From: Cellulomonas algicola
GTDB lineage: Bacteria; Actinomycetota; Actinomycetes; Actinomycetales; Cellulomonadaceae
Direction of reading: 5' to 3'
DNA: 61,576 nucleotides
Assembly (NCBI RefSeq): GCF_003851725.1
Contig: NZ_BHYL01000034.1
Coordinates: forward strand, 1 to 61,576
The notes below the pieces were generated by a model. That model was not told the origin of the DNA. It was given only the letters and a program-made list of their open reading frames with translations, and searched no databases. A program made the translations under genes and the position numbers. Shown in pieces: positions 1,121-33,226 of the stretch. Each line of letters starts with the position of its first letter. The stretch's first letter is position 1.

Positions 1121-1208
1121 CGATGGTCTCCTCTCGGCCGCAGGTCGTCCGGTCGTCGTCGTCCGGCCTCCTGCGGCGGTGTCCATGCTGGTCCACGCGG
1201 TGCCCGGT

Positions 1209-1234
1209 TGGCAATATCTGGCAAGCGATTGCCG
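1209..1234 (+). promoter_or_regulatory. LacI-type operator upstream of manD
   Basis: Two TGGCAA boxes lie 10 bp apart, start to start. The second opens the palindrome GGCAAGCGATTGCC (1220-1233). The same layout recurs at 16533-16558 on the other strand, with 20 of 26 bases identical. The right edge contains the manD -35 hexamer, so a bound repressor would block RNA polymerase. Confidence 0.75.
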
Positions 1235-1258
1235 CATCGCCACGACGGTGTCTAGGCT
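1229..1258 (+). promoter_or_regulatory. manD-aguA promoter
   Basis: TTGCCG (1229-1234), an 18-base spacer and TAGGCT (1253-1258) form a housekeeping-sigma promoter. It predicts a leader of about 48 bases before the manD ATG. The -35 overlaps the operator. Confidence 0.6.
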
Positions 1259-1312
1259 CGACGACGGAACGGACCGCACGCGGCGACGGCGCCGCGCACG
1301 ACGGGAGCACCG

Positions 1313-2674
1313 ATGACGCCGCAGCACCCCGAGCCCACGACCGGCACCCCCGCGAGCCCGACGACCGGTGCCGCCGACCCGCGCGACGTGACGACGACCG
1401 CACCGGCCGCCGCGGACGGAGCCCGCCCCGCGACCCGACCGTCGGGCAGCGCGATCCGGTCTGCCGAGGTGCTGGTCAGCAGCCCCGACCGCAACTTCGT
1501 CACGCTCCGCGTCACGACCGAGGACGGCGTCGTCGGGCTCGGCGACGCCACGCTCAACGGGCGCGAGCTGTCCGTCGTCTCCTACCTGCAGGACCACGTC
1601 GTGCCGCTGCTGATCGGCCGGGACGCGCACCGCATCGAGGACACGTGGCAGTTCCTCTACCGGTCGGCGTACTGGCGGCGCGGCCCGGTGACGATGGCCG
1701 CGATCGCGGCGGTCGACGTCGCGCTGTGGGACATCAAGGCCCGGTACGCGGGCATGCCGCTCTACCAGCTGCTCGGCGGCGCGAGCCGGACCGGGATCAT
1801 GGCGTACGGGCACGCGTCGGGCCGCGACCTGCCCGAGCTGTTCGACTCGATCCGCCACCACCAGGAGCTCGGCTTCCGGTCGATCCGCGTGCAGACGTCC
1901 GTGCCCGGCATCGACGCGGTCTACGGGGTCGCGGCGCAGCCGAGCAGCGGTGGGCGCTACGACTACGAGCCCGCCCAGCGCGCGCCGCTGCCCGCCGAGG
2001 AGGACTGGGACACCCGCGCGTACCTGCGGCACATCCCGCGCGTCTTCGAGGCCGTGCGCGGCGAGTTCGGTCCCGAGCTGCCGCTGCTGCACGACGGCCA
2101 CCACCGCATGACCCCGATCCAGGCGGCGCGGCTCGGCAAGGACCTCGAGCCGTTCGACCTGTTCTGGCTCGAGGACTGCACGCCCGCGGAGAACCAGGAG
2201 GCGCTGCGGCTCGTCCGGCAGCACACGACCACCCCGCTGGCCATCGGCGAGGTGTTCAACACCGTCTGGGACTACCAGACGGTGATCCGCGAGCAGCTCA
2301 TCGACTACGTGCGGTCCGCCGTCACGCACACCGGCGGGATCACCGCGCTGCGCCGCATCCTCGACTTCGCCGCGCAGTACCAGATCAAGTCCGGCATCCA
2401 CGGGCCGACCGACATCTCCCCCGTCGGCATGGCCGCTGCGCTGCACCTCGACCTCGCGATCCACAACTTCGGGATCCAGGAGTACATGCAGCACGGCGCA
2501 CGCACCGACGAGGTCTTCCGGCAGTCGTTCACGTTCACCGACGGGTTCCTGCACCCCGGCGACGCGCCCGGTCTCGGGGTCGTCTACGACGACGACGTCG
2601 CCGACCGCTTCCCGTACCAGCCGGCGTACCTGCCGTTCAACCGGCTCAAGGACGGCACCGTCCACGACTGGTGA
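1313..2674 (+). CDS. manD: D-mannonate dehydratase (enolase superfamily)
   Basis: Converts D-mannonate to 2-keto-3-deoxygluconate, the step after fructuronate reductase in glucuronate breakdown. The 453 residues carry the mandelate-racemase/enolase fold with metal ligands Asp261, Glu287 and Glu313 (LHDGHH, WLEDC, IGEVF). Their 26-residue spacing matches the ManD/RspA group, and a conserved His follows Asp261. The C-terminus ends in the characteristic DGTVHDW. The first ~45 residues are Thr/Ala/Pro-rich and precede the usual ManD start ([11 protein letters not shown]); this start is kept because GGGAG lies six bases before the ATG. aguA follows after 40 bases in the same operon. Some family members act only weakly on mannonate, so activity is likely but not certain. 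Confidence 0.9.
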
Positions 2675-2714
2675 CGCGCCGCGCCGACCGGAACCGCACC
2701 ACGGAAGGACCCGC

Positions 2715-4808
2715 GTGACCCGCACTGACGCCCACCCGATGTGGCTCCCCGACGAGGCGCTGCGTCCGCTCGGCGAGCGCCGCGTGCTCGTCGCCGCCGG
2801 CATCGACGACCCGGTCGTCGCGACCGTCGTGGCCGAGGTCCGCGCCGCGACCGCGCGATGGGGCGGTGCGGTGACGGTCGCCTCGCCCGACGCGTCGCTG
2901 ACGGGCGACGAGGTGCGCGGGCACGACGTCGTGCTCGCGCTCGTGCCGTCGTCGACCGCACCCGACGAGCCGACCCGTGCGCTCGCCGACGACGTGCCCA
3001 CCGCGAGCGGGTCGTTCGGCGTGCTGCGTGAGGGCGCGACGACGACGGTCCTCGGGCTGGACTCCCCCGGGCTGCTGTACGGGCTCCACCACCTCGTCCG
3101 GGCGGGTGCTGCTGCGGCAGAGGGCGACACACCGCTCACCTGGTACGCGCCGACCAACGACGTCCGGATGCTCGACCACTGGGACAACGTCGACGTGCAC
3201 CCCGTGATGGGGCAGGTCGAGCGCGGCTACGCGGGCGGGTCGATCTTCTACGCGGACGGTCGCGTCCGTGAGGACTTGTCTCGCGTCGCCTCCTACGGGC
3301 GGCTGCTCGGGTCGGTCGGCATCAACGCCGTCGCGATCAACAACGTCAACGTGCACCGCACCGAGGCGCGCCTGCTGACCGACGGCCTGCCCGACGTCGC
3401 GCGCATCGCGGATCTCTTCCGCCCGCACGGCATCCGCGTCCACCTGTCGGTGTCGTTCGCGGCGCCGATGACCGTCGGCGGCCTGCCCACGTCGGACCCG
3501 CTCGACCCGGACGTGCAGGCGTGGTGGGCGGCGCGCGTCGCGGACGTCTACGACGCGGTCCCCGACTTCGGCGGGTTCGTCGTCAAGGCGGACTCGGAGG
3601 GTCAGCCCGGCCCGTTCGCCTACGGGCGCGACCACGCCGACGGGGCGAACCTGCTGGCCCGGGCGCTCAAGCCGTTCGGCGGGACGGTGTTCTGGCGCGC
3701 GTTCGTCTACGACCACAAGCAGGACTGGCGCGACCGGTCGACGGACCGCGCGCGTGCCGCGCACGACCACTTCTCCCCGCTCGACGGGCGGTTCGACGAC
3801 AACGTCGTGCTCCAGGTGAAGTACGGGCCGACGGACTTCCAGACGCGCGAGCCCGTCTCCCCCGTGATCGCCGCGATGCCGCGCACGCGCCTCGCCGTAG
3901 AGCTCCAGGTCACGCAGGAGTACACCGGCCAGCAGAAGCACGCCGTCTGGCTGGGGCCGCAGTGGTCGGAGATCCTGCGCTTCCCGCTGTCGGGCGACGG
4001 TCCCGACGGCGGCCGTCCCGGGGGCCGGACCGTCGCGGACGTCGCCGCCGGGACCGCCGGGCCGCCCGACGCCCGTCGCGCCGGGCTGGTCGCGGTGTCG
4101 AACGTCGGCGACGACGCGTTCTGGACCGGCCACCCGCTCGCGCAGGCCAACCTCTACACGTTCGCGCGCCTCGCGTGGGACCCGTCGGCGGACCCGCAGA
4201 CGCTGCTCGACGAGTGGATCGGGCTCACCTTCCCGGACGCCGACCCCGTCGTGCGCGAGACGCTGCACCGGGTCCTCGACGACTCGTGGCGCACGTACGA
4301 GGACTACACGGCCCCGCTCGGCGTCGGGTTCATGGTCCGCCCCGGCCACCACTACGGCCCGGACGTCGACGGCTACGAGTACACGCCGTGGGGCACGTAC
4401 CACTTCGCCGATCGGGACGGCATCGGCGTCGACCGCACGCGCGCGACCGGCACGGGCTTCACCGGGCAGTTCCCCGCACCGTGGCGGGACGCCTACGAGG
4501 ACGTCACGACCTGCCCCGACGAGCTGCTCCTGTTCTTCCACCACGTGCCGTGGTCGCACGTGCTGCACAGCGGTGTCTCCGTCGCGCAGCACGTCTACGA
4601 CACGCACTGGGAGGGCGCCGCCCGCACGGTCGAGAACGCCGCCGCGTGGGACGCGATCGCCGGTCAGGTCCCCGCCGACCTGCACGCGCGCGTCGCCGAA
4701 CGGCTCGCCGAGCAGGTGCGCAGCGCCCACGAGTGGCGCGACCAGCTCCGCACGTACGTCTTCCGCCACAGCGGCATCCCGGACGCGACCGGCCGAACGG
4801 TGTACTGA
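2715..4808 (+). CDS. aguA: GH67 alpha-glucuronidase
   Basis: Intracellular enzyme removing (4-O-methyl)glucuronic acid from the non-reducing end of aldouronic xylo-oligosaccharides. It has 697 residues, the full family length. GH67 signatures are clear: KADSEGQPGP with candidate acid Glu295, VKYGPTDFQTREP with Asp374, and QVTQEYTGQQ with Glu402. The 28-residue gap between Asp374 and Glu402 equals that of the two catalytic carboxylates in characterised members. No signal peptide is seen, so the substrate must be imported, which fits the ABC transporter at 10.3-14.1 kb. The GTG start follows GGAAGGA. It is co-transcribed with manD, so uronate release and catabolism are coupled. Confidence 0.95.
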   Translation: MTRTDAHPMWLPDEALRPLGERRVLVAAGIDDPVVATVVAEVRAATARWGGAVTVASPDASLTGDEVRGHDVVLALVPSSTAPDEPTRALADDVPTASGSFGVLREGATTTVLGLDSPGLLYGLHHLVRAGAAAAEGDTPLTWYAPTNDVRMLDHWDNVDVHPVMGQVERGYAGGSIFYADGRVREDLSRVASYGRLLGSVGINAVAINNVNVHRTEARLLTDGLPDVARIADLFRPHGIRVHLSVSFAAPMTVGGLPTSDPLDPDVQAWWAARVADVYDAVPDFGGFVVKADSEGQPGPFAYGRDHADGANLLARALKPFGGTVFWRAFVYDHKQDWRDRSTDRARAAHDHFSPLDGRFDDNVVLQVKYGPTDFQTREPVSPVIAAMPRTRLAVELQVTQEYTGQQKHAVWLGPQWSEILRFPLSGDGPDGGRPGGRTVADVAAGTAGPPDARRAGLVAVSNVGDDAFWTGHPLAQANLYTFARLAWDPSADPQTLLDEWIGLTFPDADPVVRETLHRVLDDSWRTYEDYTAPLGVGFMVRPGHHYGPDVDGYEYTPWGTYHFADRDGIGVDRTRATGTGFTGQFPAPWRDAYEDVTTCPDELLLFFHHVPWSHVLHSGVSVAQHVYDTHWEGAARTVENAAAWDAIAGQVPADLHARVAERLAEQVRSAHEWRDQLRTYVFRHSGIPDATGRTVY

Positions 4809-4856
4809 CCCGATACCCACGAGCCGCGCCGGCGAGGTGGCGAGGAGACTGGCCCG

Positions 4857-5438
4857 ATGCCTCGCCTCACCGATGCCGAGCTCCGCGCGACTCTGGCCGC
4901 CGCCGTCCGCGAGCGCACCGCCGTGCGGGTCACGCGGCGCATCCGGAAGGCTGCCTCGATCGACGGCTACGTCGTCGACGTCGGACGCGCGTGGCTGCTG
5001 GTCGCGGTGCTCGGCGACGACATCCGCCTCGACGGGTGGACCGCGGTCCGGTTGTCCGACGTCCGCCGAGTGCGTGAGCGGGTCGACGAGAGCGCCGCGT
5101 TCTACCGCGCCGCTCTCACGGCCCGCGGCGAGTGGCCCCCCGGCCCGCCCTCCTCGACGGGATCGCTGGATCTCGACGACGTCGGCGGGCTCGTGCGGAC
5201 CGCCGGGGCTGCGGCTCCGCTCGTGACGATCCACGTCGAGGAGGACGACCCGTCGGTCTGCTTTGTCGGCCGGCCCGAGCGCGTCGGTCCGAAGCACCTG
5301 CGGCTGCGGGAGATCACCCCGGGCGCCACGTGGGACGACACGACCACGCGATGGCGCTTGCGCGACCTCACGCGGGTCGACGTGGGCGGCGGGTACGAGG
5401 ACGCGCTCGCGCTCGTGGGCGGCCCGCCGCCGGCCTGA
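4857..5438 (+). CDS. Hypothetical protein
   Basis: A 193-residue soluble protein I do not recognise. GAGGAG precedes the ATG by nine bases. The N-terminal ~70 residues (VRVTRRIRKAASIDGYVV, then WLLVAVLGDD) look like a small beta-barrel. The C-terminal part repeats a similar pattern of strand-rich segments (VTIHVEEDDPSVCFVG, LRDLTRVDVGGGYE), which could indicate two related Sm- or SH3-like modules. There are no membrane segments or catalytic motifs. It lies 48 bases after aguA and might be read through from it, but nothing ties it to sugar metabolism. Confidence 0.75.
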   Translation: MPRLTDAELRATLAAAVRERTAVRVTRRIRKAASIDGYVVDVGRAWLLVAVLGDDIRLDGWTAVRLSDVRRVRERVDESAAFYRAALTARGEWPPGPPSSTGSLDLDDVGGLVRTAGAAAPLVTIHVEEDDPSVCFVGRPERVGPKHLRLREITPGATWDDTTTRWRLRDLTRVDVGGGYEDALALVGGPPPA

Positions 5439-5494
5439 GCACGGGCCGGCTCGCGTCTCAGACGCCGACCTGATCGGGCCGTTCGTTGTGGGAT

Positions 5495-5764
5495 TCAGCA
5501 ATCTCGCGCGACGTCCCGCTCGAACGGGTCATCCACCGCGGAGTCGACCATTGCGAGGTCAGCGACGACGTCAGGATCGCCCACGGCGGGGAACAGAGCG
5601 GCGAGGTCGGCGACCGGGCGCCAGGTCGGACGCACCTCGGTGTGCGGGACGAGGTCCGCCACGGGACGGCCGTGCAGGGTGACGACGACACGCTCACCCT
5701 GGGCGGCGCGACGCAGCACGCCAGACGCGTCCCGCCTGAGCTCCCCCACGCCGATCGTCGTCAT
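5495..5764 (-). CDS. Phd/YefM-family antitoxin, apparently orphan
   Basis: The 89-residue product begins with the Phd/YefM dimerisation and DNA-binding fold (VGELRRDASGVLRRAAQGE, then VTLHGRPVADLVPH, about residues 6-42). It ends in an acidic, Asp/Val-rich tail typical of the toxin-wrapping segment. Such antitoxins normally precede a PIN or RelE toxin with a short overlap. Here the downstream minus-strand space is only about 60 bases before the convergent gene ending at 5438, and no toxin is seen. It is either a solitary transcription factor or the remnant of a system that lost its toxin. Confidence 0.8.
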   Translation of the reverse strand: MTTIGVGELRRDASGVLRRAAQGERVVVTLHGRPVADLVPHTEVRPTWRPVADLAALFPAVGDPDVVADLAMVDSAVDDPFERDVARDC

Positions 5765-5815
5765 GGAGCCAGGTGGAGCACCGAGTACCGCTCACCGGCA
5801 GCCCTGCGTCTTCAG

Positions 5816-6526
5816 TCAGGTGGTGAAGCGCGTGGTCGCGTCGGTGATCACCGGGGTGGCGTTGCGGACCAGGAGAGCGACCAGCGGGGACGCGAGCAGG
5901 ACGAGGAGCCAGTTGGTGGCGAGCAGCGCGATGCCGACCGCCACGACCACGAGCGCCAGCACCCCGAGCCCGCTGACCGGCTTCGCGGCGAGGTAGTGCG
6001 CGGACAGGCGAGCGACGTCGCGCGTGCGGAACGCGAACAGGGACGACAGGACGAGCGCGTTCCCCGCCCACACCAGGACGGCGACGGCGATCACGAGCGA
6101 GACGATCGCGAACGCACCGCCGGACCCGCCCAGCGCACCGGCGCCCGCGACGTTGATCGCGAGCACGGTCAGGACGACGAGCGTCGGCACCCACCACCGC
6201 AGCACGTCGCGCCAGTTCAGCCGGTACCCGCGCCAGTAGTGCCGCGCCGGTGACAGGTCGCGGTCGCCGGGCGGCGTCGTGAGCCAGTCGCGCCACGCGA
6301 AGACCGCGGCGGCGAGCGACGGTCCGAGGGGCACGGCCGCGAGCGCGAACAGCGGCGCGTTGCCGGGTGAGCGGTCGAGCAGGACGAACGCCAGGAGGGT
6401 GGGCAGGGACGTGAGGACGAGCAGGCCCTCGATCACGACGGCCCAGTAGACCGCCGCGGACCCGCGCGAGAACGGTCCGCGGCCGACCTCGGAGAACCGG
6501 TCGGCGTCCGCGCTCACGGCGCTCAC
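5816..6526 (-). CDS. DUF624 (YesL-like) integral membrane protein
   Basis: A 236-residue protein with about five or six hydrophobic segments (for example VIEGLLVLTSLPTLLAFVLL, LVVLTVLAINVAGAG, LVVVAVGIALLA) and the YRLNWRDVLRWWVPT region typical of YesL proteins. YesL genes accompany LplABC-type sugar transporters in Firmicutes and Actinobacteria; their role is unknown, with help to uptake or sensing suggested. The GTG at 6526 overlaps the GH39 stop as GTGA, which argues for translational coupling and for this start over the second GTG nine bases later. It is the last gene of the seven-gene xylo-oligosaccharide operon. Confidence 0.85.
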   Translation of the reverse strand: MSAVSADADRFSEVGRGPFSRGSAAVYWAVVIEGLLVLTSLPTLLAFVLLDRSPGNAPLFALAAVPLGPSLAAAVFAWRDWLTTPPGDRDLSPARHYWRGYRLNWRDVLRWWVPTLVVLTVLAINVAGAGALGGSGGAFAIVSLVIAVAVLVWAGNALVLSSLFAFRTRDVARLSAHYLAAKPVSGLGVLALVVVAVGIALLATNWLLVLLASPLVALLVRNATPVITDATTRFTT

Positions 6527-8202
6527 CCTGCCGGGCCGTCGTCGGGTGTGCGCGGTGTGGGCAGCTCCGCGTCGCCCACGTCGACGTGCGCCCGTGCGCC
6601 GCTGAGGAGCGCCACCGCGCGACCCGTGCCGGGCGGGTCGGCGACGAGCCGGTCGTCGTCGACGCCGAGCAGCCGCCGGTCGTCGAGGCCCTCGTGGAAC
6701 GTCTCGGCGACGGGCGTGACCTCGACGAACGTCACCTCGTGGCGGGCGAGGGACAGGTCGAGCGAGACGCGGCCGTCGACGACCGGGTAGGCCGCGTGCG
6801 CCGACGACGGGCGCGCGAGGTCGCGCAGGACGTCGACCTGGCGCTCGGTCGGCGAGAACGGGCGGCCGAGCTCGCGCCAGGCGGCGAAGGCGTTGCCCTC
6901 GTGCTCGTTGACGCGCTCGCGCACGACGAACGCGGTCGCCGGGCCGCCGACGACACCGTCCGCGTCGCCACCCGCACCGACACCGACCGGCACCGACAGT
7001 CGCAGCTCGTGCCGCTCGTGGGCGGGCGCACCGTCGGTTCCGCCGACGGGCTGCCAGGCGAGCACGGTGACGCGCCCGTCGTCGTCGACGCAGACCAGGT
7101 GGTCGTCGCCGCGCGCGAGGACGTGCCGGCCCATGCGGGCCAGGAACGCGAACAGGTGGTAGGTCGGCTTGGGCACCTGCCGGTGCGTGAGCAGCCCGAA
7201 CCCGCCGTGGAAGAACGACGTGGGGATCCACGCCTCCTCGAACACGTCGCAGAACGTCCAGTAGGAGAACGAGTCGACGTGGTCGCCGCCCCCGACCATG
7301 ACGGGCGCGAGGTAGGCCGCGTTGTAGGCGGTGTCGTGGATCGGGTTGTCCGGGCAGTACGAGGTGTTGAACTCCGTGACGTGCACGGGCAGGTCGGCGA
7401 GCGGGTGGCCGGCGAGCAGCCGGCGCGGGGTCGCGAACTGGTCGAGCAGGTCCTGCGGCGGCTTGAGCGTCTGGTAGCTGCCGAACGGGACGTGCTGCGC
7501 GGGGCCGGACGCGTACGCGTGCACGCTGAGGAAGTCGCACGGCACGTCGCGGCCGGTCACGAAGTCGGCGAACGGCTGCCACCAGTCGTCGGCCCCGGGC
7601 GAGATGGCCGGGCCGCCGACCTGGAGCGACGCGTCGACGTCCTTGATCGCGCGCGCGGTGACCTCGTACAGCCGCAGGTAGGCGTCCTGGTCGGCGTCCT
7701 TCCAGAACTGCACGAGGTTCGGCTCGTTCCACACCTCGATCGGCCACTGCCGGACCTCGTCGATCCCGTAGCGGTCGACCAGGTGCCGCACGAGCGCGGT
7801 CACGAGGTCGGTCCAGTCCGACCACGAGGACGGCGGCGTGATGTTGCCCTTCCACCAGAAAACGGTGTCGTCCCCCGACGCGAGCACCGACGGCATGAAC
7901 CCGAGCTCGACGAACGGTCTGATGCCGAGCGACAGGAACGCGTCGTGCACCTGGTCGACGTAGGTGAAGGAGTGCCGGCGCCCGGACCGGTCGCCGATCG
8001 ACCAGGGGCGCAGCACGCCCATGTCGTCGGACAGCAGCCCGTGCCCGCGGATGTGCCGGAACCCGATGTCGCGCTGCACCATCGCCAGGGACTCGCGGTA
8101 GTCGGCGCGCAGCGCGAGGTTGAGCCGGCCGGTGCCGACGCAGTGCCGCCACGCCTCGGGCAGCGGTCCGAGCGGGGTGGCCGGGACGACGACACGGGTC
8201 AC
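6523..8202 (-). CDS. GH39 beta-xylosidase
   Basis: A 559-residue cytoplasmic glycosidase that probably removes xylose from short xylo-oligosaccharides. The acid/base is Glu160 in VWNEPN and the nucleophile is Glu277 in HVTEFNTSY. These positions and contexts match characterised GH39 xylosidases. Other family marks are FRHIRGHGLLSDDM near residue 47 and SYWTFCDVFEE near 320. There is no signal peptide. The GTG start overlaps the GH42 stop by GTGA, and the stop overlaps the DUF624 start in the same way. Alpha-L-iduronidase is the other GH39 activity but does not fit the setting. Confidence 0.92.
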   Translation of the reverse strand: MTRVVVPATPLGPLPEAWRHCVGTGRLNLALRADYRESLAMVQRDIGFRHIRGHGLLSDDMGVLRPWSIGDRSGRRHSFTYVDQVHDAFLSLGIRPFVELGFMPSVLASGDDTVFWWKGNITPPSSWSDWTDLVTALVRHLVDRYGIDEVRQWPIEVWNEPNLVQFWKDADQDAYLRLYEVTARAIKDVDASLQVGGPAISPGADDWWQPFADFVTGRDVPCDFLSVHAYASGPAQHVPFGSYQTLKPPQDLLDQFATPRRLLAGHPLADLPVHVTEFNTSYCPDNPIHDTAYNAAYLAPVMVGGGDHVDSFSYWTFCDVFEEAWIPTSFFHGGFGLLTHRQVPKPTYHLFAFLARMGRHVLARGDDHLVCVDDDGRVTVLAWQPVGGTDGAPAHERHELRLSVPVGVGAGGDADGVVGGPATAFVVRERVNEHEGNAFAAWRELGRPFSPTERQVDVLRDLARPSSAHAAYPVVDGRVSLDLSLARHEVTFVEVTPVAETFHEGLDDRRLLGVDDDRLVADPPGTGRAVALLSGARAHVDVGDAELPTPRTPDDGPAG

Positions 8203-10256
8203 GGGGTCTCCTGGAGGACGAGCACGTCGGCGGGCGCGAGGGTCAGGGTGTCACCGCGGCGGACGACGCGTCCGGTGAGGGCGTCCGTGCCCTCCACCTC
8301 GGACGTCACCGTGAGCGGCGTGCTCCCATGGTGCAGCACGAAGCGGTACCGGGTGCCGTCGGGCTGCACGCGGTCGACGACCTCGAGCGCGGGCTCGTCG
8401 GCATGCGGACCCATGAGCCCGTGCTGGTCGAGCACGTGCCGCAGGACGCGTGCGACCCCGTCGTCGTCGAGGCCGGTGCCGACGTGCCAGGCGGCGCCCT
8501 CGCCGCGGGCGGCACGCGTGACCGCCGGCGTGCCCGCGTAGAAGTCGGCGCCGTACGTGCCGACGACCTCGGTGCCGTCGTGCGGGACGAGGAGCTCGAA
8601 GACGAGCGTCGCCGGGTGGGTCGTGGAACCGTTCCAGTCGATCGCGCCGTCGGTGCCGGGACCGCCGAGGCGCAGCGTGACGGGGTTCGCGACGTCGGGC
8701 GCGGCGGAGTCGGTCTCCTCGACGCGGACGCCGAGCAGCGCGTCGAGCGGCGGCTCCCCGAGGAACGCGTTGTCGTCCTCGTCGACCCGGCCGCCGTAGA
8801 AGGTGGTGACGAGCGAGCCGCCGCGGTGCACGAACGCGGTGAGCCGCTCGGCGACGTCGCCCTTGAGCAGGTGGAGCAGCGGCGCGACGACGACGTCGTA
8901 CCCCGCCAGGTCCGCGGTCACGGGTACGACGTCCACGGCGGCGTTCGCCGACCACAGCGCCCGGTGGTACTGGAGCAGCGTCTGGACGTAGGAGACGTGC
9001 CGGTTGTAGCCGTCGGTCATCTCGACCGCCCACCACGAGTCCCAGTCGAGCAGCAGCGCGACGCGCGCGGGCGTGCGCGCGCCGAGGACGCCGTCCCCCA
9101 GGGTCTTCAGCGACGACCCCAGGGCGGACGCCTCGCGGAACACGCGCGTGTCCGTCCGCCCCGAGTGGTCGATCACCGCGCCGTGGTACTTCTCGCACGC
9201 GCCCCTCGACTGGCGGAGCTGGAAGAACAGCGTCGCGTCGGCGCCGTGCGCGACCGACTGCCACGTCCACAGCGCGAGGACGCCGGGCCGCTTCACGGGG
9301 TTCACGTCGCGCGACGCCGTGATCGACGGCGTCTGCTCCATGACCCAGATCGGCGCACCGCCGCTGACCCCGCGCATCGCGGCGTGCGTGGCCGCCATCC
9401 GGGCGGCCGTGCGCAGCGGGGTGTCCGCGGGCGGGTAGTTGTCCCACGTCACGAGGTCGAGGTGCGGCGCCCACCGGTGGTAGTCGACCGGCTGGTACAG
9501 GCCCATGAAGTTCGTCGTGACGGGCGTCGTCGCGTCGTGCGCCCGGATCGCGGCCTTCTCCGCGACGAACCCGCCCAGCAGCGCGTCCGACATGAAGCGG
9601 CGGTAGTCGAGCGTCGTCCCCTGGAACGCGGTGTGGTGCGGGCCGCGCCAGTGCTCCGAGAGCATGGTCGGCGGCTGGATCTCGTCCCAGTCGGTGTACG
9701 TGTGCGACCAGAACGTCGCGTTCCACGCGTCGTTGAGGCGGTCGAGCGTGCCGTACCGCTCGCGCAGCCAGACGCGGAACGCCGCCGCGCACAGCGGGCA
9801 GTAGCACGCGCCGCCGTACTCGTTGCCGACGTGCCACGCGACGACCGCGGGGTGGCCCGCGTACCGCTGCGCGAGCCGCGACGCGAGCTCCACCGACAGC
9901 CGGCGGAAGTCCGGCGACGACGGGCAGTGGTTGTGCCGCTGCCCGAACACGTGCCGCCGGCCCTCGAAGTCCACGCGGCAGGCGTCCGGGTAGGCGCGCG
10001 CGAGCCACGGCGGCATCGCTCCCGACGGCGTGGCGAGCACGACCTCCCGCCCGGCCTGCGCCGCGCGGTCGACGATCGCGTCGAGCGTCGAGAAGTCGTA
10101 CCGGTCCTCCGCGGGCTGCAGGTGCGCCCACGCGAACACCCCGACCGTGACGGTCGTGATACCGGCCTCGTCGAACGCGCGGTGGTCGTCCTCCCACACG
10201 TCCTTCGGCCACTGCTCGGGGTTGTAGTCGCCGCCGTAGCGGACCTGGTTGCTCAC
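8199..10256 (-). CDS. GH42 beta-galactosidase or alpha-L-arabinopyranosidase
   Basis: A GH42 enzyme of 685 residues with the opening YGGDYNPEQWP, acid/base Glu146 (HVGNEYGG) and nucleophile Glu307 (WVMEQTPS). The CYCPLC cysteines belong to the zinc cluster of GH42 trimers. No signal peptide is present, so it acts on imported oligosaccharides, most likely beta-galactosyl or alpha-L-arabinopyranosyl decorations. I chose the GTG at 10256, close to the family start; an in-frame GTG at 10280 would add eight residues. It is preceded by a strong hairpin at 10295-10339, so its expression may be lower than that of the binding-protein gene. Confidence 0.9.
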   Translation of the reverse strand: MSNQVRYGGDYNPEQWPKDVWEDDHRAFDEAGITTVTVGVFAWAHLQPAEDRYDFSTLDAIVDRAAQAGREVVLATPSGAMPPWLARAYPDACRVDFEGRRHVFGQRHNHCPSSPDFRRLSVELASRLAQRYAGHPAVVAWHVGNEYGGACYCPLCAAAFRVWLRERYGTLDRLNDAWNATFWSHTYTDWDEIQPPTMLSEHWRGPHHTAFQGTTLDYRRFMSDALLGGFVAEKAAIRAHDATTPVTTNFMGLYQPVDYHRWAPHLDLVTWDNYPPADTPLRTAARMAATHAAMRGVSGGAPIWVMEQTPSITASRDVNPVKRPGVLALWTWQSVAHGADATLFFQLRQSRGACEKYHGAVIDHSGRTDTRVFREASALGSSLKTLGDGVLGARTPARVALLLDWDSWWAVEMTDGYNRHVSYVQTLLQYHRALWSANAAVDVVPVTADLAGYDVVVAPLLHLLKGDVAERLTAFVHRGGSLVTTFYGGRVDEDDNAFLGEPPLDALLGVRVEETDSAAPDVANPVTLRLGGPGTDGAIDWNGSTTHPATLVFELLVPHDGTEVVGTYGADFYAGTPAVTRAARGEGAAWHVGTGLDDDGVARVLRHVLDQHGLMGPHADEPALEVVDRVQPDGTRYRFVLHHGSTPLTVTSEVEGTDALTGRVVRRGDTLTLAPADVLVLQETP

Positions 10257-10294
10257 GATTCGGCACGTCTCCCGGGACACAGGGGTGGAACGGC

Positions 10295-10339
10295 GGACCC
10301 GGCCGCCCCGCGCACAGCGACGCGGGAGCGGCCGGGTCC
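10295..10339 (-). terminator. Intra-operon hairpin after the binding-protein gene
   Basis: GGACCCGGCCGC (10295-10306) pairs perfectly with 10328-10339. Directly inside it CCCGCG pairs with CGCGGG, giving about 18 bp of GC-rich stem with one bulge and an eight-base loop. It lies nine bases past the binding-lipoprotein stop and 39 bases before GH42. It is likely a partial terminator or 3'-end stabiliser setting the transporter-to-enzyme ratio. Confidence 0.7.
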
Positions 10340-10347
10340 GGGCGGCG

Positions 10348-12015
10348 TCAGCCCTTCGCGGCCAGCGCCTGGTTGTACGTGTCGACGTACTGGTCGACGT
10401 TGAGACCCTTGAGCTCGGTCATCCACGCGTCCCACTCCGACAGCGGGCGCGACCCGAGGATGAACGCGGCCGTGTTCTGCAGCACCGAGTCGTTGAGCGC
10501 GGACTGCCAGAGCGTGACCTGCTCCTGCTGCATCTCGTCGAGCGGCGCGGTCGGCGCGATCGGCAGCTCCTCCTTGTCCGCCATCGACTCGACGAACGCG
10601 CGGGTCGAGTCGGACTGCATCGAGCCGATGAGCTCGTCCGTCGTGCCGTTCGCGAACATGAACACGCCGTTGCTGAACCCGAAGTCGGCGTTGAGCTTCT
10701 TGGTGCCCGCCGGGTTGAGGCCGTTCCAGTCGACGTCCGCGGCGAGCGTGCGGGTGTCGCCGTCCTTCGTGTACGTCGTGCCCTCGACGCCCCACTGCGC
10801 GAACTCGATGCCCTGGTCGGAGTAGTACAGCCAGTCGATCCACTGCAGGAGCGCGAGGAAGTGCGGCGAGTCCTTCGCGGCCGACGACAGCATGAAGCCG
10901 GACGCGATGCGCGAGCCCGAGGCGACGTTGTCACCGGCCGGGCCGGCGGGCACGCGGATGAGCTTGACGTCGGCCGACGCGTTGCCCGCCTCGGTGAACG
11001 TCTTGCGGTACGTCGTGACCTCCTGCGTGTTGCCGGAGATCGCGAGCGACTGGCCCGAGCCGAACTTCTGGATCGCGGTGTCGTCGTCCTGGGTCAGCGA
11101 CTCGGGGTCGAGCAGTCCGTCCTCGACGAGCCCCGCGAAGTACTCGACGAGGTCCTTGTACCCGTCGGTCGTCGGCGCGTAGACGAACTTCTCCTCGTCC
11201 TCGTCGAACCACAGGCCCTGGCCGAAGCCCCAGCCGGCGATCGTGTCGAAGTTCGGCGCGGCGATGTTGAGCGTCGCACCCAGGGGGCTGTTGTTCGTCG
11301 TCGACCAGCGGTCCGACATCGGCCACACGCCCGGGTTCGCGGCCTTGAGCTTCTCGAGCGCGTCACGGAAGTCGTCCCAGGTCTCGGGGTCCTCGGTGAG
11401 GCCCGCCGCGTCCCACAGGTCCTTGCGGACCGCGATCGAGTACTGCGGCTGCGGCGACTCGTACAGGCCGGGGAGCATGTAGTACTTGCCGTCGGCCTGC
11501 TCGAGCGAGTCGAGGTAGTCCTGCATCCCCCACTCCTCGATCTTCTGCTGGAAGTTCGGCATGTACTGCACGTAGTCCGACAGCGGCAGGATCGCTCCGC
11601 CCGCGACGAACTGCGTCTCCTGGCCCTTGTAGGTCACCGGGATGAACTCGGGTGCGTCGCCCGAGGAGATGATGAGCGACTTCTTCTGGTCCCAGTCGGA
11701 CAGCGGCGCGCTCGTGATGTCGAAGTCGACGTTGTGCTTGTCCTTGAGCTCGGTGAGGAAGAGCCAGTCCTCCTTGAGCGGGTAGTTCGGGTGGTCGCGG
11801 TAGAGCAGGCCGAACGTGACCGGCTCGGTCGCGACGAACTCCGTGCCGGCCGCGAAGTCCTCCATCGCGCCGACGCGGTTCGCCTCCGGGATGCCGGCGT
11901 CGCCGCCGGTCTCCTCGGCCGTCGCACCGTCGCCGGACGAGCACGCCGCCGTCAGGGCGAGGGCGAGGACCGCGATCGACGCCGCGACGCCTGCGCGCTT
12001 TCGTGCTGACCTCAT
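10348..12015 (-). CDS. Extracellular sugar-binding lipoprotein (LplA/YtcQ-like)
   Basis: A 555-residue solute-binding lipoprotein of an ABC importer. A signal peptide ends in the lipobox LTAAC, with Cys25 the lipidation site, followed by a Ser/Gly/Glu-rich linker. The mature domain has LLYRDHPNYPLKEDW, SDWDQKKSLIISSGDAPEF and a C-terminal TELKGLNVDQYVDTYNQAL, typical of large LplA-type proteins that bind oligo-uronides or xylo-oligomers. The ATG follows AAGGAGA. It is the third component after the two permease genes. No ATPase gene is present, as is common where a shared MsmK-type ATPase serves many importers. The ligand (aldouronic acid or decorated xylo-oligomer) is inferred from AguA and the xylosidases. 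Confidence 0.93.
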   Translation of the reverse strand: MRSARKRAGVAASIAVLALALTAACSSGDGATAEETGGDAGIPEANRVGAMEDFAAGTEFVATEPVTFGLLYRDHPNYPLKEDWLFLTELKDKHNVDFDITSAPLSDWDQKKSLIISSGDAPEFIPVTYKGQETQFVAGGAILPLSDYVQYMPNFQQKIEEWGMQDYLDSLEQADGKYYMLPGLYESPQPQYSIAVRKDLWDAAGLTEDPETWDDFRDALEKLKAANPGVWPMSDRWSTTNNSPLGATLNIAAPNFDTIAGWGFGQGLWFDEDEEKFVYAPTTDGYKDLVEYFAGLVEDGLLDPESLTQDDDTAIQKFGSGQSLAISGNTQEVTTYRKTFTEAGNASADVKLIRVPAGPAGDNVASGSRIASGFMLSSAAKDSPHFLALLQWIDWLYYSDQGIEFAQWGVEGTTYTKDGDTRTLAADVDWNGLNPAGTKKLNADFGFSNGVFMFANGTTDELIGSMQSDSTRAFVESMADKEELPIAPTAPLDEMQQEQVTLWQSALNDSVLQNTAAFILGSRPLSEWDAWMTELKGLNVDQYVDTYNQALAAKG

Positions 12016-12089
12016 GATTCTCCTTTTCGTGGAACTCCGTCGTCCTGCACGGGAGGGGATGGGAAATGCGGTGCGCCAGCCAGAGGGCG

Positions 12090-13013
12090 TCACTGCTTGA
12101 CCGCGCCGAGCATCACGCCCGACACGAAGTACCTCTGGATGAAGGGGTAGAGGCAGATGATCGGCAGCACGGTGAGGAGCATCGTCACGGACTGCACGTT
12201 CGCCGCGATCTGCGTGAGGTTGTCCGTCGAGCCGCCCTGGATCGACGTCCCCGACGTCACGCCCGCGAGCAGGTTCCGCAGGTACATCGTCACGGGGTAG
12301 AGCTTCGGGTCGTCGATGTAGAGGAAGGCCGCGAACCAGGCGTTCCAGAACGACACCGCGTAGAACAGCAGCATCGTCGCGACGACCGCCTTGGACAGCG
12401 GCAGGACGACGCGGAAGAAGATCCCGTACGTCGTCATGCCGTCGATCGCGGCCGCTTCCTCGAGCTCGCTGGGGAAGTTCTCGAAGAACGACTTCATCAC
12501 CAGCAGGTTGAACACGCTGATCGCGTTCGGGAGCACGATCGCCCAGATCGTGTTGCGCATCCCGAGCTCGCTGATGAGCACGTAGTTCGGGATGAGCCCG
12601 CCGTTGAAGAACATGGTCGCGACGGCCACGCCGATGAAGAACTTGCGGCCCTTGAGGTTCCGCCGCGACAACGCGTACGCGTACGTCGTCGTGAGCGCCA
12701 TCGCGATCGTCGTGGCGACCACCGTGTAGACGACGGTGTTCCGGTAGTTGCGCCAGAACATGTCGTCGCCCATGACGACGCCGAACGTCGTCACGTTGAA
12801 CCCGCGCGGGAACAGGTTCACCTGGCCCGAGTTGATGTAGCCCTCGGACGAGAACGCCTGCGCGACGATGTTGACGAATGGGTACAGCACGAGCGCGCAG
12901 ACGACGATCAGCAGCGCCGCGTTGAGGAACCGGAACGACCGGTAGCCGCGGCTGTCCTTGACGACCCGCGGCTTCGTGCTGACCACGGCGGCGGGCTTCT
13001 GGTCGGTGGTCAC
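12090..13013 (-). CDS. ABC sugar permease (YtcP/LplC-like)
   Basis: A 307-residue inner-membrane permease with six predicted helices (FLNAALLIVVCALVLYPF through LLTVLPIICLYPF). The EAA loop, LEEAAAIDGMTTYGIFFRVV, couples to the ATPase. The length and the ending RYFVSGVMLGAVKQ are characteristic of YtcP/LplC proteins. The GTG at 13013 overlaps the preceding permease stop (GTGA), which decides between this and a GTG three bases upstream. With the LplB-like partner it forms the channel for the lipoprotein at 10348-12015. Confidence 0.93.
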   Translation of the reverse strand: MTTDQKPAAVVSTKPRVVKDSRGYRSFRFLNAALLIVVCALVLYPFVNIVAQAFSSEGYINSGQVNLFPRGFNVTTFGVVMGDDMFWRNYRNTVVYTVVATTIAMALTTTYAYALSRRNLKGRKFFIGVAVATMFFNGGLIPNYVLISELGMRNTIWAIVLPNAISVFNLLVMKSFFENFPSELEEAAAIDGMTTYGIFFRVVLPLSKAVVATMLLFYAVSFWNAWFAAFLYIDDPKLYPVTMYLRNLLAGVTSGTSIQGGSTDNLTQIAANVQSVTMLLTVLPIICLYPFIQRYFVSGVMLGAVKQ

Positions 13014-14092
13014 CACAGGGACGCCCCCACGGTCTTGCGCGAGATCGCGTTGGCGGACAGGACGAGCGTCACGCCGATGATCGCCTCGAACAGGCCGATC
13101 GCGGTGGCGTAGGAGACGCTGTTCGAGACGATGCCGACGCGGTACAGGTACGTCGAGATGACGTCGGCCGTCGAGTAGATGAGGGGGTTCTGCAGCAGCA
13201 GGATCTTCTCGAAGCCGACCGCCATGAACGTGCCGACGTTGAGGATGAGCAGCACGATCATCGTCGGGCGGATGCCCGGCAGCGTGATGTGCCACGTCTG
13301 CTGCCAGCGGTTGGCGCCGTCGATCCGGGCCGCCTCGTAGAGCTGGTCGTCGATCGTCGTGAGCGCCGCGAGGTAGAGGATCGTGCCCCACCCGACGGTC
13401 TGCCAGACCTCCGAGCTCAGGTAGATCGTCCGGAACCAGGACGCCTCCTGCATGAAGGTGATCGCGTCCCCGCCGAGCGCCGTGATGATCTGGTTGATCG
13501 TCCCGTTCACCGCGGTGAGCTGGAACACCACGCCCGCGACGATCACGATCGACATGAAGTGCGGCAGGTACGAGATCGTCTGCACCGACCGCTTGAAGTG
13601 CCGCGACCGCACCTCGTTGAGCATGAGCGCGAGCAGGATCGGCAGCGGGAAGACGATCACCAGCGTGAGCAGGCCCAGCACGACCGTGTTGGTGAACGCG
13701 TGCCAGAACTGCTGGTCGTTGATGAACATCCGGACGTAGTAGAGGCCGACCCACTCGTCGCCGAAGATGCTCGACCCGGGCCGGAACCGACGGAACGCGA
13801 CGACGTTGCCGAGGATCGGCAGGTACCGGAAGACGAGCAGGAAGACGAGCGGCAGGACGAGGAACGTGTAGAGCCGCCAGTCCTTCCTGAGCGCCTGCCG
13901 CCAGGTGGTGCGGCTGGGGCGGACGACGGTGCCGCCGGGGGTGGTGAACGGCTGTACGCGGCGGGTCCGCCGGGGCTTGCGCTGCTGCGGGGTGCCCGCC
14001 GGTGGCGGGGCGTTGTCGGCCACGCCGACGGGCGGCGGCGCGCCCGGCGTCGTCGCGACGCCCGCGACGACGGGCTCCTGGACGCTGCTCAT
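13010..14092 (-). CDS. ABC sugar permease (LplB-like)
   Basis: A 360-residue permease with a Pro/Arg-rich cytoplasmic N-terminus of about 70 residues, longer than usual, then six helices (LYTFLVLPLVFLLVF through AIGLFEAIIGVTLVLSA). The EAA motif is YEAARIDGANRWQQTWHITL. LplB features such as NDQQFWHAFTNTVVL and SRKTVGASLW at the end are clear. The ATG overlaps the GH3 stop by ATGA. It pairs with the next gene to form the heterodimeric channel. Confidence 0.93.
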   Translation of the reverse strand: MSSVQEPVVAGVATTPGAPPPVGVADNAPPPAGTPQQRKPRRTRRVQPFTTPGGTVVRPSRTTWRQALRKDWRLYTFLVLPLVFLLVFRYLPILGNVVAFRRFRPGSSIFGDEWVGLYYVRMFINDQQFWHAFTNTVVLGLLTLVIVFPLPILLALMLNEVRSRHFKRSVQTISYLPHFMSIVIVAGVVFQLTAVNGTINQIITALGGDAITFMQEASWFRTIYLSSEVWQTVGWGTILYLAALTTIDDQLYEAARIDGANRWQQTWHITLPGIRPTMIVLLILNVGTFMAVGFEKILLLQNPLIYSTADVISTYLYRVGIVSNSVSYATAIGLFEAIIGVTLVLSANAISRKTVGASLW

Positions 14093-16428
14093 GCGGTCAC
14101 CACCTCCGGTGCGTCGGCTCCGGTGAGCACGGCCACCTCGGTGACGAGGCGGCGGGTGTGGTCGACGGTCCGCAGCGGGCCGTCGAGGCGCGCGGTGAGG
14201 GTCGCGCGGTGCTCGGCGCTCGACCGCGAGACGCGCAGCTCGACGTCGCCCGGCTCGACGACGCGGCGGCCGTCGATGCCGGTGAACGCGGTGACGTCGG
14301 CCGGGACGGTGAACGTCACGCGGGCCTGCTCGCCGGGCGCGAGGTCGACGCGCGCGTACCCGACGAGCCGCACCACGGGCCGCGTCACCTGGGCGACGGG
14401 GTCGTGCAGGTAGAGCTGCACGACGTCGGCGCCGGCCGCGCCGCCCGTGTTCGTCACGTCGACCTCGACGACGGCCTCGCCGTCGACGGGCCAGGCATCG
14501 CCGGTCGCCAGGCGGGCGTCCCAGTCGAAGGTCGTGTACGACAGGCCGTGACCGAACGCGAAGGCGTGCGTGGGGTCGATGTTCGACACCTTCGTGCGCC
14601 GGCCCAGCGGCTGCGACAGGTACGTGCCGGGCTGCCCGGACGCGTCCGCGGGGAGGCTCACGGGCAGACGGCCCGACGGGTTGGTCGCCCCCGTCAGCAC
14701 CTCGCCGAGCGCCTGGCCGCCGCGCTGCCCCGGGAAGAACGCCTGCACGACGGCCGCGGAGCGGGTCGCGAGGTCGCCGAGCGCGTACGGGCGGCCCGTG
14801 AGCAGGACCAGGACGACGGGCGTGCCCGTGTCCAGGAGCGCGCGGACCAGGTCGGCCTGCACCCCAGGGAGGTGCAGGTCGGTCGCGTCGCACCCCTCCC
14901 CCGACGTGCCGCGGCCGAAGAGCCCGGCGCGGTCGCCGACGACCGCGACGACGACGTCGGCGGCCTCCGCCTGCGCGACCGCCTCGGCGAACCCGCTGCG
15001 GTCGGGGTCCGTCACGTCGCACCCGCGCGCGGTCGTGGTGGTGACGCCGGCGTCGCGCAGTCCGTCGAGCACCGTCGGGATGTCGAGGCCGATCGCGTGG
15101 TCCGGGTGGTGCACGCCGACGTGCGCGGGGAACGAGTAGCAGCCGAGCATCGCGTAGGGATCGTCGGCGAGCGGTCCGACGACGGCGACGCGCTGGCCGC
15201 CGCGCAGCGGGAGTGTCGCGCCCGGGTTGGTGAGGAGGACGATCGCCTCGCGTGCCAGGCGCAGCGCGACGTCCTGGCTCTCGGCGTCGTCGAGCGTCAG
15301 GGCGTCGACGTGGGCCGGGAGCGGCTCCCAGCCCTCGTCGAGCAGGCCGAGCTCGACCTTCTGCCGCAGCACGCGGTGCAGCGCACGGTCGACGAGCGCC
15401 TCGTCGACGTCACCACAGGCCAGGGCCTCGCGCAGCGGGCGGCCGTAGCAGTGCACGCTCGGCAGCTCGACGTCGACGCCCGCGCTCAGGGCCAGGGCGG
15501 CGGCGTGCCCGTCGTCGGCGGCGACCCCGTGCAGCGTGTGCAGGAACCGGACGCCGTAGTAGTCGGCGACGAGCGTGCCGTCGAAGCCCCACGTGTCCCG
15601 CAGCAGCGTCGTGAGCAGCCACGCGTCGGCCGCCGACGGGACGCCGTCGAGCTCGGCGTACGAGTGCATGACCGACCGGGCGCCGCCCTCGCGGACCGCC
15701 ATCTCGAACGGCGGCAGGATCACGTCGGCGAGCTCGCGCGGGCCGATCGAGACGGGCGCGAGGTTGCGGCCCGCGCGGCTGGCCGAGTACCCGGCGAAGT
15801 GCTTGAGCGTCGCGACGACGCCTGCGGACTCGATCCCCCGCACGTACGCGGTGCCGACCGTGCCGACGAGGTACGGGTCCTCGCCGATGGTCTCCTCGGT
15901 GCGGCCCCAGCGGTAGTCGCGCGTGACGTCGAGGACGGGCGCGAGTCCCTGGTGCACGCCCGCGGCCCGCATGCTCGCGCCGATCCGCGCGGCCATCGCC
16001 TCGACGAGGGCGGGGTCGAACGTCGCACCCCACGACAGCGGCGCCGGGTACGCGGTCGCCTGCCAGGCGGCGAACCCCGTGAGGCACTCCTCGTGGACGA
16101 GGGCCGGGATGCCGAACCGGTTGGCGGCGACGACCTGCTCCTGCGAGGCGGCGAGGCTGCGCGCGCCGGCGACCGGGTCGACGGGCGCCGAGCCGAACGG
16201 GCGGGTGAGCTGCCCGAGGCCGTCGGCGATGACCTCGTCCCAGGAGAGGTCCCCGGTCATGTCGGCCTGGTGCGGGGCGACGCCCCCGCCCGACGCGTCG
16301 GCGCCGACCCAGAGCCCGACGAGCTGCGACACCTTCTCGTCGACCGTCATCGCCGCCACGAGGGCGGCGGCGCGCTCGTCGGGGGTGCGGGTCGCGTCCC
16401 GCCAGGGGGCCTGCGGTGCGTCCGTCAT
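14089..16428 (-). CDS. GH3 beta-xylosidase / beta-glucosidase
   Basis: A 779-residue, two-domain GH3 enzyme with a C-terminal fibronectin-III-like domain. The nucleophile is Asp289 in VADYYGVRFL. KHFAGYSASRAGRN and SWGATFD match bacterial GH3 xylosidases, where ADYY replaces the usual SDW of glucosidases. The C-terminal sandwich (VAVVGPLADD, FFPGQRGGQALGEVLTG, FAFGHGLSYTTF) is complete. There is no signal peptide. It is the first gene of the operon and is driven by the promoter at 16509-16538. The ATG was chosen because the longer frame lacks family sequence; GGGAGG lies about ten bases upstream. Xylosidase activity is favoured by context, but alpha-L-arabinofuranosidase also occurs in this family. 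Confidence 0.93.
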   Translation of the reverse strand: MTDAPQAPWRDATRTPDERAAALVAAMTVDEKVSQLVGLWVGADASGGGVAPHQADMTGDLSWDEVIADGLGQLTRPFGSAPVDPVAGARSLAASQEQVVAANRFGIPALVHEECLTGFAAWQATAYPAPLSWGATFDPALVEAMAARIGASMRAAGVHQGLAPVLDVTRDYRWGRTEETIGEDPYLVGTVGTAYVRGIESAGVVATLKHFAGYSASRAGRNLAPVSIGPRELADVILPPFEMAVREGGARSVMHSYAELDGVPSAADAWLLTTLLRDTWGFDGTLVADYYGVRFLHTLHGVAADDGHAAALALSAGVDVELPSVHCYGRPLREALACGDVDEALVDRALHRVLRQKVELGLLDEGWEPLPAHVDALTLDDAESQDVALRLAREAIVLLTNPGATLPLRGGQRVAVVGPLADDPYAMLGCYSFPAHVGVHHPDHAIGLDIPTVLDGLRDAGVTTTTARGCDVTDPDRSGFAEAVAQAEAADVVVAVVGDRAGLFGRGTSGEGCDATDLHLPGVQADLVRALLDTGTPVVLVLLTGRPYALGDLATRSAAVVQAFFPGQRGGQALGEVLTGATNPSGRLPVSLPADASGQPGTYLSQPLGRRTKVSNIDPTHAFAFGHGLSYTTFDWDARLATGDAWPVDGEAVVEVDVTNTGGAAGADVVQLYLHDPVAQVTRPVVRLVGYARVDLAPGEQARVTFTVPADVTAFTGIDGRRVVEPGDVELRVSRSSAEHRATLTARLDGPLRTVDHTRRLVTEVAVLTGADAPEVVTA

Positions 16429-16508
16429 CGGGTCGGTTCCCTCCCGCGCCCACGTCGTCGTGAGCGTCCGCAACTATCGCCGTCGTTGGCGAAAGGTCAA
16501 CGCCTCGG

Positions 16509-16538
16509 AAACTAGACACTCCCGACAACGCGTGTCAA
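16509..16538 (-). promoter_or_regulatory. Promoter of the GH3-ABC-GH42-GH39 operon
   Basis: On the minus strand TTGACA (16538-16533), an 18-base spacer and TAGTTT (16514-16509) form a near-consensus housekeeping promoter. It has the same spacing as the manD promoter, and its -35 lies in the operator at 16533-16558. Confidence 0.7.
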
Positions 16539-16558
16539 TCGTTTGCCAAAACTTGCCA
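16533..16558 (-). promoter_or_regulatory. LacI-type operator, second copy
   Basis: Read on the minus strand: TGGCAA, four bases, TGGCAA, then A-CGATTG-ACA, with imperfect palindrome GGCAAACGATTGAC. It matches the manD operator at 20 of 26 positions, including both TGGCAA boxes and CGATTG. A possible weaker copy, TTGACCTTTCGCCAA, lies downstream at about 16484-16501. Confidence 0.75.
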
Positions 16559-16664
16559 GGACTCTCGCGCTTCACCCGTCCGGCTCCCCCGAGGCCGTCG
16601 GAATGCGCCGTTCGCGGTGCTACGTTCGGACGCGATACTTGCGGTTCGCGGGAAGGTTGCGAGG

Positions 16665-32988: not shown

Positions 32989-33046
32989 CGGTGCGACCTC
33001 CTCGTCGAGCCGGTCGCGCATCGGCGAGGCGATGCCATGAACGGCG

Positions 33047-33064
33047 TGCAATCGGTTTCATCGC
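33047..33064. promoter_or_regulatory. Operator near uxaC
   Basis: TGCAATCGGTTTCATCGC, with dyad core TGCAATCGGTTTCA. It matches 33157-33174 at 16 of 18 positions. It is about 60 bases upstream of the uxaC start in the divergent uxaC/lacI region and probably binds the LacI protein encoded at 33227. Confidence 0.65.
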
Positions 33065-33156
33065 CGAGCCAAGCAGGTGGACGCGCGATCCGCAAGCCTC
33101 TGCCGCACATCTGTTCGAAGCGTGGGAACGGGTTGTCGCGCGGGTCGCGGACGTGC

Positions 33157-33174
33157 TGCAATCGCATTCATCGC
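33157..33174. promoter_or_regulatory. Operator near lacI-uxuB
   Basis: TGCAATCGCATTCATCGC, 110 bp from its partner at 33047. The first six bases (TGCAAT) sit 18 bases after TTGTCG (33133-33138), a candidate -10/-35 pair for lacI, so binding would be autoregulatory. The paired sites could allow looping. Confidence 0.6.
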
Positions 33175-33226
33175 TGCGGCACCGACTCGTCGTCGATCGA
33201 GCAGCACGACCGGGAGGAGGGCACCT

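Follow-up and report, generated by a model that had tools for sequence, protein, structure and literature searches.

A three-half-site operator shared by two promoters of Cellulomonas algicola and its predicted role in glucuronate regulation

In the RegPrecise survey of LacI-family regulators, distances between neighboring sites peak at 13, 22 and 32 base pairs (bp), and a single extra half-site 10 bp out is not among the arrangements described in the part of the survey at hand (PMC4052901). Here, we have analyzed a stretch of 61,576 nucleotides from Cellulomonas algicola (contig NZ_BHYL01000034.1; hereafter the window), in which two promoters carry an operator with such an addition: that of manD and the adjoining glycoside hydrolase family 67 (GH67) gene, and that of an operon for a GH3 enzyme and an ATP-binding cassette (ABC) transporter. 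The operator resembles those of RegPrecise in being an even, CG-centred palindrome close upstream of carbohydrate genes, and differs from them in the single half-site at 10 bp. Comparison of related loci leads us to put at slightly better than even the chance that this shared module serves as operator for a glucuronate-responsive repressor, LacI1, that its extra half-site gives an overlapping register, and that at the GH3 promoter it is layered with sites of a second regulator, LacI2. In this strain, the regulon predicted by the comparison comprises the manD-GH67 and GH3-ABC operons but not glucuronate isomerase.

Several described systems share one feature or another with this locus; the comparisons refer to the portions of the sources that were available. 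XynR of Anaerocellum bescii is, as proposed here, a LacI repressor acting on an alpha-glucuronidase/uxuBA operon and on xylan genes, but its listed operators are single 20-bp palindromes whose sequence differs from that of the TGGCAA operator (PMC12285236). BxlR of Streptomyces, with the published motif CGAANNTTTCG, resembles LacI2 in being a LacI regulator by a beta-xylosidase/ABC operon, and palindromes related to that motif lie beside LacI2; no TGGCAA operator is mentioned for that operon in the available text, whereas here one is present in a single subclade (PMC12772271). CytR of Escherichia coli, also a LacI-family protein, can use direct repeats of half-sites, and a direct repeat is present here as well; the CytR repeats, however, have 1-bp spacers and form a weak motif tied to CRP, whereas here a strong CG palindrome is accompanied by one direct half-site (PMC3454398). 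Unusual half-site spacing is also known from the crevar sites of the LacI-family protein CcpA, which are inverted repeats with a variable spacer, whereas in the present operators the additional repeat is a direct one, in most cases at 10 bp (PMC5263246). ArdK, of another family, binds direct repeats by turning one helix-turn-helix (HTH) domain (PMC9723621). The consulted part of a recognition-code paper (PMC2978694) held no usable rule for the helices of LacI1 and LacI2. No paper on LacI xylan operators in Cellulomonas was found, and none of the open-licence papers listed in related searches describes the three-box TGGCAA operator, judged by title and the beginning of the abstract. The first-pass annotation of the window had called the tandem box unusual among LacI operators, a view that this survey supports. 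The extra half-site challenges the view of a LacI dimer that requires just one palindrome.

The pattern TGGCAA-N4-TGGCAA-N-CGATTG, searched as TGGCAANNNNTGGCAANCGATTG with up to three mismatches, has two matches in the window, both perfect, at 1209-1231 (plus strand) and 16536-16558 (minus strand). The mean number of matches in 100 dinucleotide shuffles of the window was 0.00, which bears out the layout that had been read earlier at both promoters. At the same tolerance, the genome (4.5 Mb, 535 contigs) held no copy of the spaced motif beyond the two in the window; relaxed half-sites again returned just these two copies, and the reversed control of the pattern had one genome match. Counted by eye, the 26-mers of the two sites are identical at 20 of 26 positions, the same agreement as had been stated before. 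The motif is composed of a CG-centred palindrome, GGCAANCGNTTGNC, whose left arm is preceded, at a distance of exactly 10 bp, by a further half-site GGCAA. Each site thus has the even CG-centred palindrome near a promoter that is typical of LacI operators, GGCAAGCGATTGCC and GGCAAACGATTGAC (one arm imperfect), together with a half-site at 10 bp, and not two whole palindromes 13, 22 or 32 bp apart. Two complete overlapping palindromes were also considered and rejected, as the gap has no central CG. The -35 elements and 18-nucleotide spacers of the earlier promoter assignments were seen at both sites, but the -35 hexamer coincides with the right arm of the palindrome and does not lie beside it. 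The palindrome alone, with one mismatch, has 53 genome matches versus 77 for its reversed control and is therefore not enriched, so that the case rests on the full motif.

Phasing and gene context of the extra half-site

The distance between the outer box and the palindrome was determined by a gap scan, GGCAA-N(0-30)-GGCAANCGNTTG, over a family set of 221 genomes. The scan returned 104 places in 67 genomes, and its backwards control 24. A gap of 5, equal to 10 bp, was found at 83 of the 104 places and in 61 of the 81 distinct strings, with a binomial p value below 1e-70 against equal gaps, uncorrected for relatedness. When 396 genomes were drawn from the order, 72 places were found in 51 genomes (16 for the backwards control), and the 60 places outside the family included 24 with gap 5, 7 with gap 6 and 5 with gap 7. 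On the basis of the shuffles, the genome scan and the family gap scans, a chance origin of the motif was rejected, and judged from the comparison the three-box layout is a real, conserved operator variant within a known kind of regulator. For control, two other operator types were scanned: TGCAA showed none of 5 matches at 10 bp, and GGAA showed 10 of 130 (10 of 115 when only distinct matches are counted), a mild excess, because of which the 10-bp box may not necessarily be unique to this regulator group. The GGAA type consists of GGAANCGNTTCC palindromes in family genomes, and its largest class, with gap 30, is a pair of whole palindromes.

The genes next to the operator were examined at 85 distinct sites at which the outer box is phased at 10 bp and the second box reads GGCAA or GGCAC. 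These sites come from the window and 76 regions, most of the regions lying around tandem matches; near-identical species entered this count separately. The next gene was manD at 26 sites, glucuronate isomerase at 17, beta-glucuronidase at 13 and a fructuronate-reductase-like gene at 6. Smaller classes were the window-type GH3 gene (5), a family-5 binding protein (3), 6-phosphogluconate dehydrogenase, HAD, a 258-aa protein type and other GH3 genes (2 each), a gluconokinase-like gene (1) and other genes (5), with no next gene at one site. Because 62 of the 85 sites lie immediately 5' of manD, uxaC, gusA or uxuB-like genes, the three-box operator is a marker of a predicted glucuronate regulon. 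The analysis thereby predicts this regulon, its regulator and its operator across a large group of actinobacteria that degrade plant matter. A further 20 regions from other families of the order, picked from short-gap matches of the order scan, contained uxaC, uxuB-like, gusA or manD genes in 11 cases and a LacI protein resembling LacI1 or the related LacI_B in 17; in the remaining three regions (L217, L219 and L223) no LacI like either of them was seen.

The manD-GH67 promoter and its divergent regulator

Operator 1 (1209-1234, plus strand) consists of half-site 1, GGCAA at 1210-1214, half-site 2, GGCAA at 1220-1224, a central CG at 1226-1227 and half-site 3, TTGCC at 1229-1233, which overlaps the -35 element. 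The manD promoter (1229-1258, plus strand), assigned by eye, has the -35 hexamer TTGCCG at 1229-1234, an 18-nucleotide spacer and the -10 hexamer TAGGCT at 1253-1258; a TAGGCT-like hexamer stands at the same position in the manD promoters of relatives. Genes were called by a codon-usage script and named from Pfam and NCBIfam. The promoter precedes manD for D-mannonate dehydratase (1313-2674, plus strand; NF043051 above cut-off) and a GH67 alpha-glucuronidase gene (2715-4808, plus strand), whose closest named matches, from Cellulomonas septica and C. fimi, are 92-93% identical. LacI1 (95-1120, minus strand) carries the LacI HTH and periplasmic-binding-protein-like domains, PF00356 and PF13377, both above cut-off, and is the likely owner of both operators.

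Of the 81 genomes of the genus, 38 have an ortholog of LacI1 with at least 66% identity. The far-side gene was manD in 39 and GH67 in one of 40 LacI1-anchored regions, that is, the genus loci and two loci from other genera of the family, and the core GCA(A/C)NCGNTTG(C/T)C was present in all 40. Half-site 1 stands at 10 bp, with no more than one of six bases deviating, in 26 loci and at 9 or 11 bp in 2, and 12 loci are without it. The 12 box-less loci form one clade on the protein tree with support 100/100, so that a single loss suffices, and all of them have an extended perfect palindrome, GCTGGCAAACGATTGCCAGC. Compensation of the lost box by a perfect palindrome would fit these sequences, but as a single event. 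In the box-less clade (L262-L273) the residues around the hinge leucine read ALLSG, as they also do in L136 (box at 11 bp), versus ALSSG in LacI1 proteins with the box at 10 bp.

We propose that a LacI1 dimer would occupy half-sites 2 and 3, the arms of the CG-centred palindrome, and block RNA polymerase at the -35 element, with glucuronate or a derivative of it as the presumed inducer. Half-site 1, one helical turn upstream, would offer a second, overlapping register and thus raise occupancy where the right arm also has to serve as -35; a single dimer could not occupy half-sites 1-2 and 2-3 simultaneously. At manD-GH67, half-site 1 would in addition cover a plausible -35 of the divergent lacI1 gene and so allow autoregulation.

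The last point leads to a simpler explanation, namely that half-site 1 is merely the -35 of the divergent regulator promoter and that the palindrome alone suffices for the repressor. On the opposite strand, the manD site reads TTGCCA at half-site 1 (1214-1209), and CAGCAT (1190-1185) follows after 18 nucleotides, which gives a putative lacI1 promoter at 1185-1214 (minus strand). A hexamer [CG]A[GC][GC]AT, defined post hoc after the sequences had been read, stands 17-18 nucleotides past half-site 1 at 23 of the 26 LacI1 loci whose box lies at 10 bp, at both of those where it is shifted to 9 or 11 bp, and at none of the 12 box-less loci, and for this reason half-site 1 at manD probably doubles as the -35 of lacI1. 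Of the 85 tandem sites, 55 have a divergent upstream gene, 26 a codirectional one and 4 none, and a looser reverse -10 was found at 18 of the 55 divergent sites versus none of the 26 codirectional ones. However, the box is retained at 10 bp at those 26 codirectional sites, it is present without the lacI1 hexamer in L203-L205, and no matching reverse -10 could be found by eye at the GH3 site. Moreover, as read from the sequences of other families, the outer box may be located within the promoter spacer or on both sides, so that it appears tied more to the palindrome than to the promoter. A divergent -35 role thus cannot fully explain the box at the 26 sites with a codirectional upstream gene or at the GH3 promoter, and as the sole explanation of half-site 1 it was rejected, though it is strong at manD; we regard the view that nothing else is required as rather unlikely.

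Another alternative is an additional occupant of the outer half-site: a second regulator, or else one more dimer of LacI1 or of a related LacI paralog. There are indeed forms with four half-sites, at the GH3 promoters of four genomes (G000, G055, G036 and G024) and at L218 and L228, and some genomes have up to 5 LacI1-like matches. Evidence on the box itself comes in part from LacI_B, for which 20 loci were found by protein match and chosen to have no tandem match of the family scan nearby: by eye, 12 of them (L274-L282 and L284-L286) have GACAA at 10 bp, and in L283 GGCAA at 10 bp precedes a TG-centred palindrome. The outer box thus uses GGCAA or GACAA, the same forms as the palindrome arms (TTGCC or TTGTC), which points to one protein for all boxes, and two dimers centred 10 bp apart should clash. 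A second binder therefore seems to us distinctly improbable. A broader idea is that the actinobacterial glucuronate repressor group reads three to four half-sites, spaced one helical turn apart, through an undescribed LacI binding mode. A dimer might, for example, alternate between an inverted and a direct register, or a dimer of dimers might share a single palindrome; we offer this idea tentatively, as possible but short of probable.

The GH3-ABC promoter and a putative second repressor

Operator 2 (16524-16558, minus strand) has half-site 1, GGCAA at 16557-16553, half-site 2, GGCAA at 16547-16543, half-site 3, TTGAC at 16538-16534 within the -35, and, 10 bp downstream of the right arm, a fourth half-site-like box, TTGTC at 16528-16524. 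The promoter (16509-16538, minus strand), again assigned by eye, has TTGACA at 16538-16533, an 18-nucleotide spacer and TAGTTT at 16514-16509. It is followed by the gene for a GH3 beta-xylosidase/alpha-L-arabinosidase (14089-16428; NF052329 above cut-off) and by the ABC transporter genes (10348-14092; permeases 13010-14092 and 12090-13016, binding protein 10348-12015), and perhaps also, judged from gene spacing alone, by GH42 (8199-10256), GH39 (6523-8202) and DUF624 (5816-6526) genes in the same transcript (5816-10256), all on the minus strand. On the plus strand lie the gene of the BxlR-like regulator LacI2 (16665-17735) and, downstream of it, that of an AXE1 acetyl xylan esterase (17867-18847).

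Like BxlR, LacI2 is a LacI regulator beside a GH3 beta-xylosidase and a sugar ABC operon. Two BxlR-like elements are its putative operators: CGATAGTTGCG at 16469-16479 (minus strand), between the -10 and the GH3 gene, and CGATACTTGCG at 16633-16643 (plus strand), before lacI2. Both read CGATASTTGCG, which has five exact copies in the genome; of the three others, one lies before a GH10 xylanase gene and two lie by CBM4_9/polysaccharide-deacetylase genes. Only exact copies were counted, since at one mismatch the backwards control outnumbered the pattern. The three extra copies are our loci L296, L297 and L298, and the GH10 gene has a LacI of its own upstream.

Close GH3 orthologs (67-100% identity, paralogs of lower identity having been dropped) were available from 23 genomes, 22 of them usable because G037 ends at a contig edge. 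In the alignment of the 22 GH3-LacI2 intergenic regions, the -35, CTA at the -10 and the two BxlR-like elements are kept in all. The latter are palindromes related to the CGAA-Nx-TTCG of BxlR, in many regions near CGAAAGTTTCG or CGATACTTTCG, but those of the window have the form CGATASTTGCG and 5 of the 22 GH3-side copies end in TTTCC. The tandem TGGCAA operator, on the other hand, was found in only 5 of the 22 (G000, G055, G036, G024 and G035). Thus, the conservation that had been proposed as a check of the shared module was found, upstream of orthologous manD-GH67 genes and, for GH3-ABC, in four of the nearest relatives. A matrix derived from LacI1 sites gave a significant operator (no more than 1 of 200 shuffles as good) in 15 of 19 GH3 regions of genomes with LacI1, in three placements: 5 tandem at the -35, 7 single inverted upstream and 3 inside the spacer. 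With the same matrix, none of the GH3 regions of the three genomes without LacI1 (G042, G050 and G096), all of which have LacI2 and a LacI_B-type protein, was significant.

These data bear on the ownership of the operator, for which the first-pass annotation had left a choice between the proteins at 95-1120 and 16665-17735, one of them controlling both operons. LacI2 is the LacI adjoining the GH3 operator; however, the BxlR-like sites that appear to be its own occur in all 22 intergenic regions, the tandem TGGCAA operator occurs in 5, and the three genomes that have LacI2 and not LacI1 lack a TGGCAA-type operator in the matrix scan. The recognition helices of the two proteins also differ (GVSVPTVSK in LacI2 versus GVAVSTASR in LacI1). 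The first candidate, LacI1, thus fits better, and ownership by LacI2 appears very improbable. Because the operator is present with LacI1 (15 of 19), absent without it (0 of 3) and found in three forms, the comparison suggests that a LacI1-type operator was recruited to the GH3/ABC promoter, which would then be controlled by two repressors. The LacI1 operator there would be an added layer over the conserved LacI2 sites, and full expression should consequently depend on two signals, one of the glucuronate type and one of the xylo-oligosaccharide type. This shows how a xylan-uptake operon may have gained a second signal.

Several observations weigh against the LacI1 reading with an overlapping register. 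Half-sites 1 and 2 form a direct repeat, poorly suited to a symmetric LacI dimer, and the gap between them has no central CG. The 12 box-less loci with their perfect palindrome count as a single event, and the putative lacI1 -10 is missing from them as well (0 of 12), so that compensation and a change of promoter are indistinguishable in this clade. L155 and L181, the only ones of the 26 boxed loci with both six-base arms perfect, and the shifted L139 retain the box despite such arms. In 8 of the 20 LacI_B loci, by eye, no CG palindrome is preceded at 10 bp by G(G/A)CAA. At GH3, the matrix scan found no significant LacI1 operator in four genomes with LacI1 (G026, G081, G049 and G069), and the three genomes without LacI1 cluster together by GH3 identity. 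The natural split between clades with and without the box, and between genomes with and without LacI1, provides ready-made controls.

Glucuronate isomerase and other regulators in the window

The first-pass annotation had placed uptake, debranching and uronate metabolism together under a single LacI repressor. This holds as a prediction for the manD-GH67 and GH3-ABC operons, but not for all of uronate metabolism: the promoter of glucuronate isomerase (31507-33021) has no TGGCAA motif within three mismatches in the genome scan of this strain. Control of this gene by the three-box motif was therefore rejected for this strain; the region 33022-33226 has two copies of a different motif, TGCAATCGnnTTCATCGC, which are probably the operator of the neighboring LacI protein (33227-34420). 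A protein with a lactate-racemase N-terminal domain (Lar_N) is repeatedly encoded near glucuronate isomerase in relatives (L187, 3565-4854; L225; L226) and may be an uncharacterised uronate enzyme.

Two further near-palindromes are intergenic, GGCAAGCGCTTCCC at 52154-52167, between a LacI gene (51091-52134) and a Gfo/Idh-type gene, and GGCAAGCGCTTTCC at 43913-43926; they are possible operators of other LacI paralogs. Between the two operons with the shared motif lie genes for a 193-aa protein (4857-5438) and a Phd/YefM-type antitoxin (5495-5764).

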